Of a DNA stretch of 35,920 nucleotides, positions 17,585-26,343 are shown piece after piece (position 1 is the first letter of the stretch; each line of letters opens with the position of its first letter). The DNA lies in assembly GCA_001804125.1 (NCBI GenBank), contig MHFI01000010.1:1-35920 (forward strand). Reading direction: 5' to 3'. Origin of the DNA: Omnitrophica bacterium RIFCSPHIGHO2_02_FULL_51_18 (GTDB lineage Bacteria; Omnitrophota; Gorgyraeia; 2-02-FULL-51-18). Both the position numbers and the translations under genes were made by a program. The notes under the pieces were generated by a model. That model ran no database searches, was not told where the DNA came from, and saw only the letters and a program-made list of their open reading frames with translations.

Positions 17585-17621
17585 TTATAAGAGGTAAGTA
17601 ATGAAAACACACCTTATGGAA
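17585..17621 (+). repeat. Duplicate of the higA-like translation initiation region (paired with 18439-18475)
   Basis: TTATAAGAGGTAAGTAATGAAAACACACCTTA vs TTATAAGAGGTAAACAATGAAAACGCATCTTA. Confidence 0.7.
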
Positions 17622-18081: not shown

Positions 18082-18444
18082 ATGACCCATTGCGAAATCG
18101 TTTATTTTAAGATTGATAGGGGCGATGAACCTGTCAGGGAGTTTGTGAATCGCCTCGATACTAGCTCGAAGCGTAAATACTGGCGTAAGATTGATTATCT
18201 AAGAGAGTTTGGGAAAAACCTTTGCGAGCCCCATGCGAAGACATTGGGTAATGGAATCTACGAATTACGCTTTAGAGGGTCAGACGGACATTTTAGAGTC
18301 TTGTATTTTTTCTTTAATAGTGACCATGCGGTTTTGACTAACGCTTTTAAGAAGAAGGCGAATCGAACACCAAAACAGGAGATTGATTTAGCCGTATCGA
18401 GGATGAATGGTTTCTTAGCCTCCCCTGATCAATACGGCTTATAA
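18082..18444 (+). CDS. RelE/HigB-like toxin (phage Gp49-like family)
   Basis: AKTLGNGIYELRFRGSDGHFRVLYFFFNSDHAVLTNAFKKKANRTPKQEIDLA. Confidence 0.88.
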   Translation: MTHCEIVYFKIDRGDEPVREFVNRLDTSSKRKYWRKIDYLREFGKNLCEPHAKTLGNGIYELRFRGSDGHFRVLYFFFNSDHAVLTNAFKKKANRTPKQEIDLAVSRMNGFLASPDQYGL

Positions 18445-18454
18445 GAGGTAAACA

Positions 18455-18790
18455 ATGAAAACGCATCTTACGAACGTAAAAGACCATTTAAAAGAAGAAC
18501 TGAAAGATCCCTATTTCAGGGAACTTTATGAGTTGGATTCGGTAAAAACCGAGATTGCCAAAAAGATCATCGAATACCGCATCAAACATAATTTGAATCA
18601 ATCTCAACTAGCCAAAATGGTAAAAGTAAGCCAACAACAAATCTCCTACATCGAGGAAGGCGATTTCAGTAACTTTCAAACCATCCAAAAAGTGCTCTTG
18701 GCTATTGGTTATAAAATCATGCGAATTCAAATCGGCCAGCTTTCAGCCAAAGAAAAAAGAATCGTCAAAAACAATCTTCAACAAGTCTAA
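18455..18790 (+). CDS. HigA-like XRE helix-turn-helix antitoxin
   Basis: IIEYRIKHNLNQSQLAKMVKVSQQQISYIEEGDFSNFQTIQKVLLAIGYKI; adjacent to toxin. Confidence 0.88.
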   Translation: MKTHLTNVKDHLKEELKDPYFRELYELDSVKTEIAKKIIEYRIKHNLNQSQLAKMVKVSQQQISYIEEGDFSNFQTIQKVLLAIGYKIMRIQIGQLSAKEKRIVKNNLQQV

Positions 18791-19222: not shown

Positions 19223-19786
19223 CTAACGCTTGATTTCAGCAAACCTTTCTCCATTCCATTTGTAGATTTTTTCATAAGAATCGGCAATCGGGTCTTTGTC
19301 GTAATTCCTCATTTTGCAAACAATTTCCTTTGTTCCATCATTATCCAAGTCTACCTCTGTGATGGAAGGGGCGTCCGAATAGGTTGATAAAACCTCGATT
19401 ATTTCATTGCCTTTGAAAGAATAAACCCTTCTACTTTCACTATGCGCGCCACCGGCCGAATCTACAACGATGAAGGGCTTGATATTTTGTCCGATAGTGA
19501 GGATATCCAGTCTTGTAAAATCGGGGTAAAACCAATCGCCTAAGTACTCAGAAAAAGACTTGTTCTTGGAAACCACTTCTAAAGAAGCTCGACAATTTCC
19601 AATTTCATCTTTGTCACTAAAAATTAAACTGATTTGTTCAGGGTTTTTATCGCCATCCAGATCCATGGATTTGGAAAAAAGCATATCGTCTACCCGCGCG
19701 CAGGCTGTAAGAGAAGATAAACAAAACAACACCGTAACCAAACGGAGCCAGTCCTTGAATTTTGAAATACCATTTTCAATTTTCAA
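19223..19786 (-). CDS. Putative lipoprotein with FG-GAP/VCBS-like DxDxDG repeats
   Basis: LFCLSSLTAC lipobox-like; DLDGDKNPEQISL and DLDNDGTKEIV motifs. Confidence 0.6.
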   Translation of the reverse strand: MKIENGISKFKDWLRLVTVLFCLSSLTACARVDDMLFSKSMDLDGDKNPEQISLIFSDKDEIGNCRASLEVVSKNKSFSEYLGDWFYPDFTRLDILTIGQNIKPFIVVDSAGGAHSESRRVYSFKGNEIIEVLSTYSDAPSITEVDLDNDGTKEIVCKMRNYDKDPIADSYEKIYKWNGERFAEIKR

Positions 19787-20276
19787 GAACTAACCCCTTA
19801 GACTTAGACCCGGTAAATCCAACATCGGATTTTTGTCGCTTATACTCGCAAGGATTAAAAATATGAACGTGACAAACAGTTTTCAGCTCAATGGCTTTTT
19901 TCAAAATGCCTTTGTCTAATGTGATAAAAGGCGCGGAATACTTTCGCGCTTCAAAAATGTGCCGGGCATCTCTTTCGACTTTTACTGGACACCCGTTGCC
20001 TGCCAAGATCTCTTTAATCCGCTCGAGCACTTTCATTTCCTGAGTATTAAGTCTCATCTCTCTAGTGTAAAACGGGATTGATAATCCTAATTTTTTAACC
20101 AATAGAGGAGTGTGCGGATGATCTATCTCCTCCTCTACAGAGCAAGCAACCCACAAGCGAATACGCTCCTGTTTGTGCCAATCCAAAATTTCCAGAAAAC
20201 ATTCACTCTCAGGCGTATTGCAGTGCAATACGCACGCATCGACAAATACCTCGATTGAGCAAAGGCGCTGGTTCAT
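19776..20276 (-). CDS. PIN-like domain protein (putative nuclease)
   Basis: From internal start: MNQRLCSIEVFVDACVLHC...FITLDKGILKKAIEL; ATGA overlap with upstream gene at 20273-20276. Confidence 0.6.
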   Translation of the reverse strand: MNQRLCSIEVFVDACVLHCNTPESECFLEILDWHKQERIRLWVACSVEEEIDHPHTPLLVKKLGLSIPFYTREMRLNTQEMKVLERIKEILAGNGCPVKVERDARHIFEARKYSAPFITLDKGILKKAIELKTVCHVHIFNPCEYKRQKSDVGFTGSKSKGLVLEN

Positions 20277-21844
20277 AATGGCGGTTTCAATTTTTCTAGT
20301 AATTCTTCTATTAAGTTCTTCCTCGGAGGTCCAGGCGTATGCAGGCCCAAAACGTTCAGGTGCTTCCAACCTTCTCCCTGTTTAAATCCATCGGATATAA
20401 TAAATCTTCCCCAACCATTTTTGTCAAAAAAACTTACAAGTTTTTTAAAATACTTCGATGAAGAACCGAATTCCTTTCTCGCGAAATGCGCCGACGATAA
20501 GGCGTACAAACATCTGTAAAGATTGAAATAGTCGAAATATTCTCCCCGGATTTTTTTGTAATTTTTAAACTCCTTCAGCGCAAGCTCCAACGCCCTGTTC
20601 AAATGGTAAATCAATCGGTTCAGATCCGTTTCCACAAGCCCGAGTTTGTAATTGACATCTATGCTGTTGTTATTTATTTCATATGCTTTCTTGAAAAGAC
20701 CCAGCGGAGTAAAAGTTATGTTTTTAAAAAAATCGTAGAACGCGTTGCGAGATGTTTCATTTTCCGGATACTGTTCGTATTCGGAGGTACGCGCATTGAA
20801 CTTTTGAAATAGAAAATCGTTCCAATATTTCACCTGTTCGTCCTCATATCTCGACGAAAACCTCCGGATCCAACTCCCGAGACGAAGGTAAATCTCCTCA
20901 TGCATGGTTCCCAAATCAATGGCTTTCTTAAAATGTTCGGCGGCTTTGACAAAATGCAATACCAAGTTCTTGTCAAAATCAGCTATATAAAACATGCCCT
21001 CCAAATCATAGATTTTTTCATAGTAGAGATCTGTCAACGCTTCATACGCTGAACAAAGGTGAGTTTTTGTGGCGAATGGCTCAAGAACGGTTATGATATC
21101 ATCATATCTTTTGACATCTTGCTTGACCCGGTCCAACTCAGCCTCTCTACCGGATTTATCCGTGTTCTCGCGTTCCCTATCATGCGATTTTAAGCATGAA
21201 GCCAAAGAAGCTGCACCCGCCAAGAGTGGCAAGCGCTGAATTATGCGGGAATCTTCTCGATTGATTTTCAAGTGTTTCAGATAGGAATCAATGGACGCGT
21301 CTGCAATCGAAAGATCGAAAAAATCGAGCGTATAAGGCAGTTTGTAATCACAGGACGCGAGACAACATTTCAACTTCATGTCGGTGCTCGCGTATTCAAG
21401 AAGCATTTTTTTATCTTGATGATAAATACAATGTGCGAAACTATCGCTTTTCTTTGTGCCGTGATTTTTAATCAGATCTTTTAAATACTCATCGCTCAGT
21501 TCAATTACCTCTATACGCCATTTTTCAAGAACTTTTTTGTATTCCGGCTTTGCATAATTGGCCACGACGACACATTTAACTTTTTTATTCGGTTCAATTG
21601 CCTTGAGCGCTAACCTATAGCCCAAAACTTGCTCTCCTACGCCTCTTTCTAAATTTCCTTTTTTAACCTCTACGACTATCAGCTGGCTCTTCCCTTTCGT
21701 AAAAAGCACGTCCGCAACTAAATTTCCGATCATTACCTGCCGCCCGATCAACTTGTACCCTCTTCCATGAAAAATAATATGCGGATATTCTGAAATGATC
21801 GACTCGATGTGACGCTCTGATACCAGTTCTGGCTTTGTATTCAT
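20273..21844 (-). CDS. NucS/DUF91-like PD-(D/E)XK nuclease domain with long C-terminal helical (TPR-like) region
   Basis: N-term LVSERHIESIISEYPHI..GRGYKLIGRQVMIGNLVADVLFTKGKSQLIVVEVKKGNLERGVGEQVLGY; remainder helix-rich. Confidence 0.72.
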   Translation of the reverse strand: MNTKPELVSERHIESIISEYPHIIFHGRGYKLIGRQVMIGNLVADVLFTKGKSQLIVVEVKKGNLERGVGEQVLGYRLALKAIEPNKKVKCVVVANYAKPEYKKVLEKWRIEVIELSDEYLKDLIKNHGTKKSDSFAHCIYHQDKKMLLEYASTDMKLKCCLASCDYKLPYTLDFFDLSIADASIDSYLKHLKINREDSRIIQRLPLLAGAASLASCLKSHDRERENTDKSGREAELDRVKQDVKRYDDIITVLEPFATKTHLCSAYEALTDLYYEKIYDLEGMFYIADFDKNLVLHFVKAAEHFKKAIDLGTMHEEIYLRLGSWIRRFSSRYEDEQVKYWNDFLFQKFNARTSEYEQYPENETSRNAFYDFFKNITFTPLGLFKKAYEINNNSIDVNYKLGLVETDLNRLIYHLNRALELALKEFKNYKKIRGEYFDYFNLYRCLYALSSAHFARKEFGSSSKYFKKLVSFFDKNGWGRFIISDGFKQGEGWKHLNVLGLHTPGPPRKNLIEELLEKLKPPL

Positions 21845-22046
21845 TTATGGGTATAGTTTCGAGGGTACAAAATTCCGGACACCGCCGACTCAGGGTAGGA
21901 TGGATCCTCTATGACAAGGCATTGTATAAGATCTTGTTCATGCCAAGGATATAGGGGTGTCGACTTACTGTAGTCGAGTTGAGGGGCAATGCCAAACTTA
22001 GATTGGGTCAAGTGCCGCGTCTGTTCTTCACTTTTTTTTCGCTCAT
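21841..22046 (-). other. Cryptic short ORF, possibly frameshifted at an A8 run, coupled by ATGA to the nuclease gene
   Basis: MSEKK | SEEQTRHLTQSKFGIAPQLDYSKSTPLYPWHEQDLIQCLVIEDPSYPESAVSGILYPRNYTHK*; A8 at 22032-22039. Confidence 0.4.
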
Positions 22047-22085
22047 ACGGTTAATAAGCATTAATCCTCATGACAAAAAAACTAC

Positions 22086-22670
22086 TCACAGCATTTCCTG
22101 CAAGTAGTCATGAAGCATGCTGTAAGTAGTATCAAGATAAACGCTGATTCGGTCGATGACCTGAGAAAAATTTTCTAAATCTATCTTGTCCAACTGCTCA
22201 AGAGACGGCTCTCCTGATTTGAGCACTGGGTATCTACACTCCTCACCGCTGTTATCCAACTTCGCAAACTCAAGAATTTGGTTGCCAACGATTGATGCGG
22301 GGTTGTCTTCCTCGGGAAAATGAGTTCTGATTATTTTTTTCGCATCGTCCCATAAATTTTCTAACTTGTGGTGGGGTGGAATTTGTACATCACAACCCTC
22401 TACCCTTTGGCCGATAGTGATAATAGCTTTAAGCATTAGCTCAATATAATGTCTGTATAAAAAAATAACCGGATAAACAAGAAGATCCTGGTCTGATTCT
22501 TGCTGTCGTATGTGTTCGATAAGAATATCAGCTGACCGCTTATACCCAGAAGCGTAGGAGCTAAAAGTTTTAAAATGCAAGAAAGCTATTGACCCTCCGA
22601 AAGTAGCGGTCACAAGCTTATCGCCATTTTTTGGCCACGGGAATTCATCCGGGCTGAAATGTATGCGCAT
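22086..22670 (-). CDS. Hypothetical protein, HEPN-like helical signature
   Basis: LVYPVIFLYRHYIELMLKAIITIGQRVEG...HHKLENLWDDAKKII pattern. Confidence 0.6.
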   Translation of the reverse strand: MRIHFSPDEFPWPKNGDKLVTATFGGSIAFLHFKTFSSYASGYKRSADILIEHIRQQESDQDLLVYPVIFLYRHYIELMLKAIITIGQRVEGCDVQIPPHHKLENLWDDAKKIIRTHFPEEDNPASIVGNQILEFAKLDNSGEECRYPVLKSGEPSLEQLDKIDLENFSQVIDRISVYLDTTYSMLHDYLQEML

Positions 22671-22701
22671 TAAATTAACCTTGGAGTGGGTTTCAGCTTT
22701 T

Positions 22702-22920
22702 TTATGCTGCCCACGTCAATTTGCGATGAGATTCAACGCAATCCCTCAAATAAAGGTTGATTAAGCTCTGATAGGGGACGCCCATCTTATCCGCCATGGA
22801 CTTGAAATAATTGATAATGTCCGTCCCAAGGCGGATAGTAACCTGTCTCTTGAGCGCCTTTGCGTATGGATTGCGATGCCCTTTAAGTTTTGTCAGGTCG
22901 TATTCAGCTCTCATATTCAT
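22702..22920 (-). CDS. BrnA/CopG-like antitoxin
   Basis: YDLTKLKGHRNPYAKALKRQVTIRLGTDIINYFKSMADKMGVPYQSLINLYLRDCV; ATGA overlap with BrnT-like gene. Confidence 0.85.
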   Translation of the reverse strand: MNMRAEYDLTKLKGHRNPYAKALKRQVTIRLGTDIINYFKSMADKMGVPYQSLINLYLRDCVESHRKLTWAA

Positions 22921-23204
22921 CTCTCCTCATAACGTTCGGCCTCTTTCTTCGTGGCTTTGCGGGCCGAAACAATTCTAATTTCAGAATCATCCGCTCTGAA
23001 ACAATGGCACACCAAAAGAACCCTGAGGCGATAACTCACTCCCAGCATCAGGAATCTATCTTCATCCTGTGAATGATCAGGATCGTGGAATTCAATGGCT
23101 CGTTCGTCATAGAAAACAGTTTCGGCTTCTTCAAAAGAAACGCCATGTTTTCTCTTGTTTATCCTGTTCTTATTTTCATCCCACGCAAATCGAATTTTAT
23201 TCAT
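22917..23204 (-). CDS. BrnT family (DUF497) toxin; internal start MNKIRF preferred
   Basis: MNKIRFAWDENKNRINKRKHGVSFEEAETVFYDERAIEFHDPDHSQDEDRFLMLGVSYRLRVLLVCHCFRADDSEIRIVSARKATKKE. Confidence 0.92.
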   Translation of the reverse strand: MNKIRFAWDENKNRINKRKHGVSFEEAETVFYDERAIEFHDPDHSQDEDRFLMLGVSYRLRVLLVCHCFRADDSEIRIVSARKATKKEAERYEER

Positions 23205-23281: not shown

Positions 23282-23770
23282 ATGGCCCTATACGACCAAG
23301 AAAGAGAGGTTGGCATGGGCAGCGAATTGGCCCAAAAAATGGAGGCCTTAAAGGGAGCGCCTTTGAAGGGTTTAAAGGCGGCTTATGCGGAGTATTTCCA
23401 AATCAAAAAGGCCTCCAATAACCGTACCTATATGTGGCGCAGATTGGCCTATAGAATGCAGGAGCTGGAATACGGGGAATTGCCAGCCAAAGCAAAAGCC
23501 AAGCTGAACGCGCTCATGGATACCTACGATCCCGTGAACAATGTGGCCCTTAAGCCCCAAGTGGCTGTATCTGGCTACCTTCCCAAAAGAGACCGGCGGC
23601 TTCCACTTCCCGGCACGATCATCACAAAAGACTATAAGGGCACAAAAATTCAGGTGAAGGCATTGGACAAGGGCTTTGAATATAGCGGCAAGATTTATAA
23701 GTCGCTCACGGCAATCGCTAAAGAGATAACAGGGGCCCACTGGAATGGGTTTTTGTTTTTTAACTTATGA
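23282..23770 (+). CDS. DUF2924 domain protein
   Basis: RTYMWRRLAYRMQELEYGELPAKAKAKLNALMD...GTIITKDYKGTKIQVKALDKGFEYSGKIYKSLTAIAKEITGAHWNGFLFF. Confidence 0.88.
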   Translation: MALYDQEREVGMGSELAQKMEALKGAPLKGLKAAYAEYFQIKKASNNRTYMWRRLAYRMQELEYGELPAKAKAKLNALMDTYDPVNNVALKPQVAVSGYLPKRDRRLPLPGTIITKDYKGTKIQVKALDKGFEYSGKIYKSLTAIAKEITGAHWNGFLFFNL

Positions 23771-25371
23771 AAACTGACGCTGAAGAAAAGAAAATAATCC
23801 GATGCGCGATCTACACGCGCAAGTCCACAAGCGAAGGATTAGACCAGGATTTTACTACCCTCGACAACCAAAGAGAATCCGCTGAAAGCTACATCCAAAG
23901 CCAAAAAAGCCAGGGATGGACTGCTATATCGGAACAGTACAATGATGGCGGTTTCACTGGTGCTAACATTGACCGTCCTGCACTTCAAAAACTCATGGAC
24001 GACATTAAAACCCAAAAGGTTGATTGCGTGGTGGTCTATAAGGTGGATCGACTTTCAAGATCGCTTATTGATTTCGTAAAGCTCCTGCAGTTCTTCGAAG
24101 AGAACAAGGTCACCTTTGTGTCCGTGACCCAGCACTTCAACACCCAGACTTCAATGGGTCGTCTGACGCTGAATATTCTACTGTCCTTTGCCCAATTCGA
24201 GCGCGAGATCATAAGCGAAAGAACGAAGGATAAGATGGGAGCGGCCCGAAAGAAAGGCAAATGGGTCGGAGGACTCTCACCTCTTGGGTATGACCTGGAT
24301 AGGGTAAACAAAAAGCTTGTGATAAACCCCAAGGGGGCTGAAACGATCCGTATGATCTATGATCTCTATATCCAGGAGAAGTCGCTTCTTGCCGTGGCGC
24401 GGAGATTAAACGAAAGAGGTCTCGCAACCAAATCCTACATCCGAAAAACTGGAACATTTGGAGGAGTAAAATTCAGCACTACAAATATTCAGATGATCAT
24501 CAGAAACTACGCATACATAGGAAAGGTCTTTTATGGAGGAGAAATCTATCAGGGGCTTCATGAAGCGATCATCCCGGAAGAGGTGTTCCAAAAAGCCCAT
24601 GAAATACTGGCGTTAAACCGCAAAGAACGGGGAGTTTCAAAAAACACAAAGAGCTTGGGTATTTTGAGCGGTCTCATTCGTTGCAAAGACTGCAATGTGG
24701 CCATGTACCACACGTATTCCAAGAAAGAAAAGTTCAAGTACTTATACTACGTCTGCGTCAACAGCGTCAAAAGAGGCCGGAAGGACTGCCCCACGAAATC
24801 CATCAGTGCCGATAAAACCGAGGAAACTATCTTGGGGATTCTTCGAGAATTAAGCCAAGAGCCGAAGCTGAAAGAAAAAGCATGGAAGAGGCTTGTGCTG
24901 GAAGAAAAGGTCGCAGTGGTCAAAACCTTGCTTAAGGAAGCCGACTACAGCGCCAAGGACGCGATCTTGGGGTTGGCTCTTCAAGGCGAAGGAGAAAGAC
25001 GCGAGTTCAGGGTAGAAGTGAGAGATTTGAAGCATGTTCCTGCGTCAAAAAAAGAGGCGATCAAAAATGAGCCCAAGGTCCGGCAGAACTTGGCTCTTGC
25101 CCATCAGATCGAAGAACTGCTCGACACAGGCAAGATAAACGACGTGAAGCAACTCACAGGCCACTTAAACATGAGCCATGCCAGAATCCACCAACTCATG
25201 GCCATGACGCTCCTCGCGCCTTCTATCCAAGAGGACATCCTGCTTGGCGAGAATGAACGCCTTTCCGAGATCCCCGAATACAAGCTCAGAGAGGTCACCA
25301 GTGAAACCGACTGGCAGACCCAAAGAAACCTTTGGGATAAGCTCCTCCTTCCAATCCCCGCCGCAAACTAA
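23767..25371 (+). CDS. Large serine recombinase (resolvase/invertase family, zinc ribbon)
   Basis: RCAIYTRKSTSEGLDQDFTTLDNQRESAESYI...VVYKVDRLSRS...QFEREIISERTKDKM; ATGA overlap with DUF2924 gene. Confidence 0.95.
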   Translation: MKTDAEEKKIIRCAIYTRKSTSEGLDQDFTTLDNQRESAESYIQSQKSQGWTAISEQYNDGGFTGANIDRPALQKLMDDIKTQKVDCVVVYKVDRLSRSLIDFVKLLQFFEENKVTFVSVTQHFNTQTSMGRLTLNILLSFAQFEREIISERTKDKMGAARKKGKWVGGLSPLGYDLDRVNKKLVINPKGAETIRMIYDLYIQEKSLLAVARRLNERGLATKSYIRKTGTFGGVKFSTTNIQMIIRNYAYIGKVFYGGEIYQGLHEAIIPEEVFQKAHEILALNRKERGVSKNTKSLGILSGLIRCKDCNVAMYHTYSKKEKFKYLYYVCVNSVKRGRKDCPTKSISADKTEETILGILRELSQEPKLKEKAWKRLVLEEKVAVVKTLLKEADYSAKDAILGLALQGEGERREFRVEVRDLKHVPASKKEAIKNEPKVRQNLALAHQIEELLDTGKINDVKQLTGHLNMSHARIHQLMAMTLLAPSIQEDILLGENERLSEIPEYKLREVTSETDWQTQRNLWDKLLLPIPAAN

Positions 25372-25647: not shown

Positions 25648-25684
25648 AAAAAAGCCCCGATTCAGATCATGGATCAGGGCTTTT
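25648..25684 (-). terminator. Rho-independent terminator downstream of tRNA-Leu(CAA)
   Basis: GCCCTGAT...ATCGGGGC stem followed by TTTTTT on the minus strand. Confidence 0.6.
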
Positions 25685-25718
25685 ATCCTCTCTGATGTGC
25701 CCTTAGGAGAGGAATAAG

Positions 25719-25805
25719 TGGTGCCGGAGATGAGAGTCGAACTCACAACCCCTTACGAGGATCGGTTTTTGAGACCGACGCGTATGCCAATTCCGCCACT
25801 CCGGC
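25719..25805 (-). tRNA. tRNA-Leu(CAA), encoded CCA
   Basis: GCCGGAG TGGCGGAATTGGCATACGCGTCGGTCTCAAAAACCGA...GTTCGACTC...CTCCGGC ACCA; anticodon loop CTCAAAA. Confidence 0.93.
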
Positions 25806-25940: not shown

Positions 25941-25982
25941 GGTTTTTGAGACCGACGCGTATGCCAGTTCCGCCACTTGGGC
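25941..25982 (-). pseudogene. Truncated tRNA-Leu(CAA) 5' half
   Basis: GCCCAAGTGGCGGAACTGGCATACGCGTCGGTCTCAAAAACC closely matches the intact tRNA-Leu(CAA) up to the anticodon arm, then diverges; no 3' half. Confidence 0.75.
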
Positions 25983-25993
25983 TAATTTATTTG

Positions 25994-26214: not shown

Positions 26215-26343
26215 CACACCTTCGCTGGTGTTTGCACTCCGTCGCTTGCGTTGCAAGCTATGGTGTACTCGCACTCCGTCGCTTGCGTTGCAAGCTATGG
26301 TGTACTCGCACACCGAAGCTCCGCGAAGCGGAGCGAAGGTGTG
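26215..26343. repeat. Composite repeat at tRNA-Ala 3' end: 12-bp perfect inverted ends enclosing two tandem 37-bp units
   Basis: CACACCTTCGCT (26215-26226)/AGCGAAGGTGTG (26332-26343); CACTCCGTCGCTTGCGTTGCAAGCTATGGTGTACTCG at 26235-26271 and 26272-26308. Confidence 0.9.

Follow-up and report, generated by a model that had tools for sequence, protein, structure and literature searches.

A 35,920-nucleotide stretch of the genome of Omnitrophica bacterium RIFCSPHIGHO2_02_FULL_51_18 (GenBank assembly GCA_001804125.1, contig MHFI01000010.1, positions 1 to 35,920, hereafter the window) contains a run of minus-strand genes encoding a BrnT–BrnA toxin–antitoxin pair, a HEPN-like protein, a NucS-like nuclease, a PIN-like protein and a putative lipoprotein. 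A first-pass annotation, made from the letters of the window, had drawn seven minus-strand open reading frames (ORFs) here and suggested a mobile defence or abortive-infection operon led by the toxin–antitoxin pair. We found all seven ORFs at the coordinates that it gave, with junctions as it described, and we found that they lie in an island larger than the run itself, with a HigBA pair (18082-18790) at one end and genes for a DUF2924 protein and a large serine recombinase (LSR) at the other. The features of the locus are as follows (aa, amino acids; E, E-value).

18082..18444, plus strand: HigB-like (Gp49) toxin (PF05973, E 2.9e-24)
18455..18790, plus strand: HigA-like helix-turn-helix (HTH) antitoxin (HTH_3, E 5.8e-9)
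19223..19786, minus strand: putative lipoprotein, 187 aa, lipobox LTAC, TTG start (called from the sequence)
19776..20276, minus strand: PIN-like protein, 166 aa (invariant acids; no family match for the window protein itself)
20273..21844, minus strand: nuclease, 523 aa, with a NucS-like domain (N-terminal ~135 aa) and a helical TPR-like remainder (NucS_C, E 1.3e-8)
21841..22011, minus strand: doubtful cryptic ORF, 56 aa (TTG start, negative codon score, no family match)
22080..22109, minus strand: probable intrinsic terminator at the end of the HEPN-like gene (12-bp hairpin and 7-U tail)
22086..22670, minus strand: HEPN-like helical protein of a widespread family, 194 aa (relatives and a confident model; weak HEPN fold match)
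22702..22920, minus strand: BrnA antitoxin, 72 aa (PF14384, E 4.7e-8, 33.7 bits versus a cut-off of 26.1)
22917..23204, minus strand: BrnT toxin, 95 aa, ATG at 23204 (PF04365, E 1.7e-29, 102 bits versus a cut-off of 34.5)
23282..23770, plus strand: DUF2924 protein (PF11149, E 4.1e-38)
23767..25371, plus strand: LSR (Resolvase, Recombinase and Zn_ribbon_recom domains; PHROG integrase, 6.7e-119)
25666..25718, minus strand: element end, a dyad motif directly after the tRNA CCA (shared motif and held-out model)
25719..25805, minus strand: target tRNA-Leu(CAA) (ARAGORN)

Between about 18 and 25 kb, the GC content of the window drops to 40-46%, versus mostly 52-54% outside, and tRNA-Leu lies 8.2 kb from leuS. 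Relatives from the same family have a single cluster of Zip, tRNA-Ala, tRNA-Leu(CAA) and leuS, in which tRNA-Leu is separated from leuS by 20 bp to about 1.3 kb (six genomes) or by 0.5 kb (a seventh, cut by a contig end); one small gene lies between the two in three of these relatives, the tRNAs have the other orientation in two, and none has a recombinase there. Because the relatives have no recombinase at this position and keep tRNA-Leu close to leuS, versus 8.2 kb in the window, the ~8.2-kb low-GC segment with DUF2924 and the LSR is an insertion between tRNA-Leu(CAA) and leuS.

The end of the insertion at the tRNA is marked by a motif that other islands share. Enough sequence was available for 28 LSR loci (the window counted), and 17 of these have a tRNA 217-348 bp past the LSR stop codon, its 3' end always facing the element, and the docking tRNAs in LSR loci are those for Leu, Asp, His, Glu, Gln, Lys and Ser. 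A dyad of ~50 bp begins right after the tRNA 3' end and is common to islands at different tRNAs. A model of this motif built without the window recovered the window site at 25717-25668 (E 0.016), its sole match in 744 kb that included islandless relatives. In two loci (L157 and L158), a second copy lies ~14 kb away in the same direction and repeats ACCCCA, the bases that end the tRNA in L157; these second copies could mark the opposite end of the element or be left over from an earlier tandem insertion. Support for both the island and its docking site is good.

Repeats were also seen around the island. Copies of a 32-nt segment holding the HigA ribosome-binding site and start codon, 88% identical, lie at 17585-17616 and 18439-18470; the first is not followed by an intact gene and resembles the remains of a HigBA pair. 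At 25941-25988, 136 bp past the intact tRNA, lies a partial tRNA-Leu(CAA) copy of 42-48 nt from the 5' half, which another integration or a duplication may have left. Near tRNA-Ala there is a perfect 37-nt tandem repeat (26234-26307).

Among 386 genomes of the phylum, 135 (including that of the window) have LSR homologues at an E-value of 1e-30 or better, and 20 of the closest LSR loci from other genomes of the phylum were taken as the sister set. DUF2924 is directly upstream of the LSR in 20/20 sister loci, as it is in the window. Sister cargo lies mainly on the strand opposite the LSR, and its first gene starts 0.5-1.1 kb from the LSR; likewise, the window's cargo is on the opposite strand and BrnT starts 0.56 kb from the LSR. 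Two sister contigs (L165, L175) end before any cargo, so that 18 islands were scored. Known defence genes were present in 14 of these: type IIG (L157, L162, L167), type II (L159, L164, L170), type I (L166, L171), type III (L169, L174, L176 and, weakly, L173), Hachiman HamAB (L161) and Druantia DruE (L168). Because the loci were picked by recombinase similarity and the cargo genes by hand, 14/18 describes this sample and not a whole-family rate. In a control from the chromosomal side, none of 10 genes, drawn from ten of the sister loci, had a PADLOC match at 1e-6. Among the papers searched, DUF2924 and a recombinase were co-mentioned only in ones on Wolbachia. The proposal that the run is mobile defence cargo beside a recombinase is thus well supported as to setting and location, by the islandless relatives, the end motif at the tRNA 3' terminus and the defence genes of the sister islands.

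Islands docked at tRNAs usually use tyrosine integrases, which makes it unusual for a serine-recombinase family to dock at tRNA 3' ends. The window's island resembles tRNA-docked tyrosine-integrase islands in its docking at a tRNA 3' end, and Tn7-like transposons in carrying defence systems as exchangeable cargo (PMC8649781), but it differs from both in having a serine recombinase and DUF2924; its end lacks a tyrosine integrase, and Tn7 genes are absent. Furthermore, it is like the SCC/SCCmec (Ccr) cassettes, which are moved by a large serine recombinase, have a fixed docking site and carry exchangeable cargo, often with restriction–modification. Unlike these, it docks at a tRNA 3' end rather than at rlmH and carries DUF2924, and its recombinase scores 149 bits for CcrB and 135 bits for CcrA, versus cut-offs of 900 and 700.

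Within the run, the main ORFs have leave-one-out codon scores like those of coding sequence (z 3.3 to 10.0). BrnT and BrnA overlap in an ATGA at 22917-22920, 31 bp separate BrnA from the HEPN-like gene, and the nuclease and PIN-like genes again overlap in an ATGA, with an 11-bp overlap between the PIN-like and lipoprotein genes. The 56-aa frame exists as drawn but is doubtful as a gene, given its negative codon score (z 2.2), its TTG start, no visible ribosome-binding site and no match in searches of the family libraries. At the end of the HEPN-like gene, the hairpin at 22109-22080 has a folding energy of -15.7 kcal/mol (z -4.2; 0/200 shuffles as good), and the nuclease gene lies 241 bp beyond the HEPN-like gene. 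Because of this terminator and the gap that follows it, the run probably forms two transcripts, BrnT–BrnA–HEPN-like and nuclease–PIN–lipoprotein, rather than one. BrnT and BrnA are ordinary family members, adjacent and overlapping, with both domains above the Pfam cut-offs and no notable difference from known BrnT–BrnA type II toxin–antitoxin systems.

The nuclease has a NucS_C domain at its N terminus, followed by weak TPR matches. Its catalytic D and ExK are present (D45, E59, K61 and Q72 are kept along with six relatives), and a profile of the relatives recovers solved NucS/EndoMS structures at 1.7e-7. It shares this domain with NucS/EndoMS, where the domain is C-terminal, but it has no NucS N-terminal domain; its own nuclease domain is N-terminal and precedes ~390 aa of helical, TPR-like sequence. 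Against the full NucS model it scores 27.6 bits, versus a cut-off of 216, and it does not have the full NucS architecture. Full-length relatives were absent from genome_contigs, viral contigs, plasmids, phages and the sampled genomes of the phylum and class, and for the C-terminal ~390 aa no relative was found there except a weak match in one genome. In PADLOC, the window's cargo matched no named anti-phage system, the best match being the candidate family PDC-S11 (2e-6, nuclease domain only), and among the papers searched none brought DUF91, phage defense and nuclease together. Two relatives from the phylum have NucS_C fused to an EVE domain (L029 5491-6387 and L030 6001-6900); EVE is linked to modified-base recognition, and these fusions resemble type IV-like restriction enzymes.

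Two convincing relatives of the PIN-like protein, 26-29% identical, occur in the phylum, and the PIN-type active-site acids D13, E50, D103 and D121 are invariant among the three PIN-like sequences. The window protein itself has no library match, and one relative matches PIN_12 weakly (0.0047, below the cut-off). No relatives were found in viral contigs, plasmids or phages, and a PIN profile recovered no PIN structure from the PDB sequences. The lipoprotein has a weak match to FG-GAP (0.0042), which is also below the cut-off. In L021 (4098-9142), a mobile locus with a tyrosine integrase, a PIN relative lies 4 bp behind a 278-aa gene of unknown type, and a HigBA pair related to that of the window is found further along.

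Altogether, its location in a defence slot, its intact nuclease site and its ATGA coupling make the nuclease–PIN pair a reasonable candidate defence system in a single genome, and since no other sampled genome yielded the pair, it points to a possible new defence system rather than a proven one.

The HEPN-like protein belongs to a broad family, with members at 54 loci in genome_contigs, spread across many phyla, and in 291 plasmids and 9 viral contigs. In the family libraries, the window protein scores below every cut-off. Its AlphaFold model is confident (pLDDT 94) and all-helical. The two best PDB matches of this model are HEPN-type proteins, at weak and non-significant scores (E 0.64 or worse); 2hsb, 2q00 and 1wol are among the best fold matches (E 0.64-2.0, TM by target 0.46-0.60), and a profile search of the PDB sequences gave nothing useful. 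No conserved Rx4-6H pair occurs across 36 sequences of the family, and the window protein has no such motif whatsoever. Conservation of FLYRH in the family was partly produced by the search pattern used, and the conserved residues outside that pattern are K81, H101, W107, D139, R146 and Y147. The HEPN-like label of the first-pass annotation thus draws on a weak fold match, and the catalytic motif is absent. Neighbours of the relatives include HamA (L024), Shedu (L034), DUF6035 (L035), Abi_C (L051) and a type I restriction subunit (L049), and ordinary genes too. The HEPN-like gene stands directly behind the Hachiman, Shedu or DUF6035 genes, with short gaps, at L024 6001-6627, L034 3965-4570 and L035 3980-4612, and it is possibly a general rider of nuclease defence systems. 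HEPN domains are frequent partners of restriction–modification and abortive infection (Abi) systems (PMC3710099), and such a partnership would fit the setting of the window's gene but does not establish membership. Like the HEPN RNase and toxin families described there, the window protein is helical, has HEPN proteins among its best PDB matches and has relatives with defence neighbours; unlike them, it has a non-significant fold match and no conserved Rx4-6H.

All ORFs of the fetched loci, with flanks of up to 6 kb (shorter at contig ends), were searched with the window's BrnT, BrnA, nuclease and PIN-like proteins. The HEPN-like loci, about 70 distinct ones, contained none of the four; the NucS-like loci lacked a PIN gene, and the PIN loci a NucS-like one. 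We had considered a conserved HEPN–nuclease–PIN module but dropped it because the relatives occur apart. Conserved co-occurrence of the nuclease and PIN genes, which the first-pass annotation had proposed as a check, was likewise not seen: within the sampled genomes, where convincing PIN relatives number only two, the homologues lie apart, an outcome that the first-pass annotation had named as refuting its proposal.

Beyond the insertion, its tRNA-side end and the sister islands with their cargo, we infer, with moderate confidence, that the run is cargo of the ~8.2-kb LSR/DUF2924 island in a defence-type slot, and that nuclease–PIN–lipoprotein is its likeliest defence payload. On this reading, the LSR with DUF2924 placed a site-specific island at the 3' end of tRNA-Leu(CAA), and the run fills a slot that in sister islands is mostly taken by anti-phage systems. 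BrnT–BrnA and the HEPN-like gene that follows would form one transcript, of which the toxin–antitoxin part may keep the island in the lineage. The second transcript, encoding the NucS-like nuclease with its TPR-like part, a PIN-type RNase and the lipoprotein, would be the defence payload, in which the nuclease might recognise and cut invading DNA and the translationally coupled PIN protein might cut RNA as a second, host-arresting step. Several observations weigh against this reading. The left end of the island is not fixed, because no second copy of the end motif was found at the far end in the window, and there is no repeat of the tRNA-Leu 3' end near 17.5 kb. Structure prediction of the nuclease without an alignment gave an unusable model (pLDDT 39), and the putative PIN assignment draws on four acids that three sequences share. 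Because only one genome is known to have the nuclease–PIN pair, conservation cannot support a joint function. Finally, 4 of the 18 sister islands have no clear defence cargo, carrying instead a P-type ATPase (L158), a nucleotidyltransferase (L160), AAA_14/DUF4143 (L172) or a 2359-aa protein with a signal-like start (L163).

These last islands would also suit an explanation in which nuclease–PIN–lipoprotein serves the island or the host, in DNA repair, inter-element competition or an envelope function, rather than phage defence. NucS proper is a mismatch endonuclease, and a lipoprotein is unusual for a defence operon; but the window protein has only the nuclease domain in common with NucS, two of its phylum relatives are EVE fusions and the slot is mostly used for defence, so that we judge this explanation improbable. 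A more serious rival, which we still regard as rather unlikely, is an element stabilised by two toxin–antitoxin modules, BrnTA and HigBA, in which nuclease, PIN and lipoprotein are unrelated passengers gathered singly and have no joint role. The HigA-start remnant suggests piecemeal gain and loss, neither the nuclease nor the PIN gene has a conserved partner, and the PIN relative of L021 has a different upstream neighbour, whereas the nuclease/PIN overlap and the use of the slot by sister islands mainly for multi-gene defence systems argue the other way. That all seven genes form a single operon and a single abortive-infection system, with BrnTA and the HEPN-like, nuclease and PIN proteins acting together, is very improbable. 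The common strand, short junctions and ATGA overlaps had suggested as much to the first-pass annotation; the single system is not supported, because a terminator stands between the HEPN-like and nuclease genes, HEPN-like relatives are found with none of these partners and elsewhere adjoin HamA, Shedu, DUF6035 or Abi_C genes, and the PIN and NucS-like relatives lie apart.

An extended form of the favoured reading, in which the defence-type cargo belongs to a wider pattern, is a tentative possibility: an undescribed LSR/DUF2924 island family would dock at many tRNA 3' ends across a phylum of small genomes, swapping defence systems in one slot, and would carry here a new two-effector system of a NucS-type nuclease with a TPR-like part and a PIN RNase. 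The interest of the locus lies in the island family and in one candidate nuclease–PIN pair. An LSR family with tRNA 3' ends as its docking sites might also serve as an integration tool. The common recombinase, end motif and cargo slot provide a search handle, by which unknown genes in the slot, even those that have no relatives, become defence candidates, and the nuclease–PIN pair, if active, would combine attacks on DNA and on RNA in a new way.

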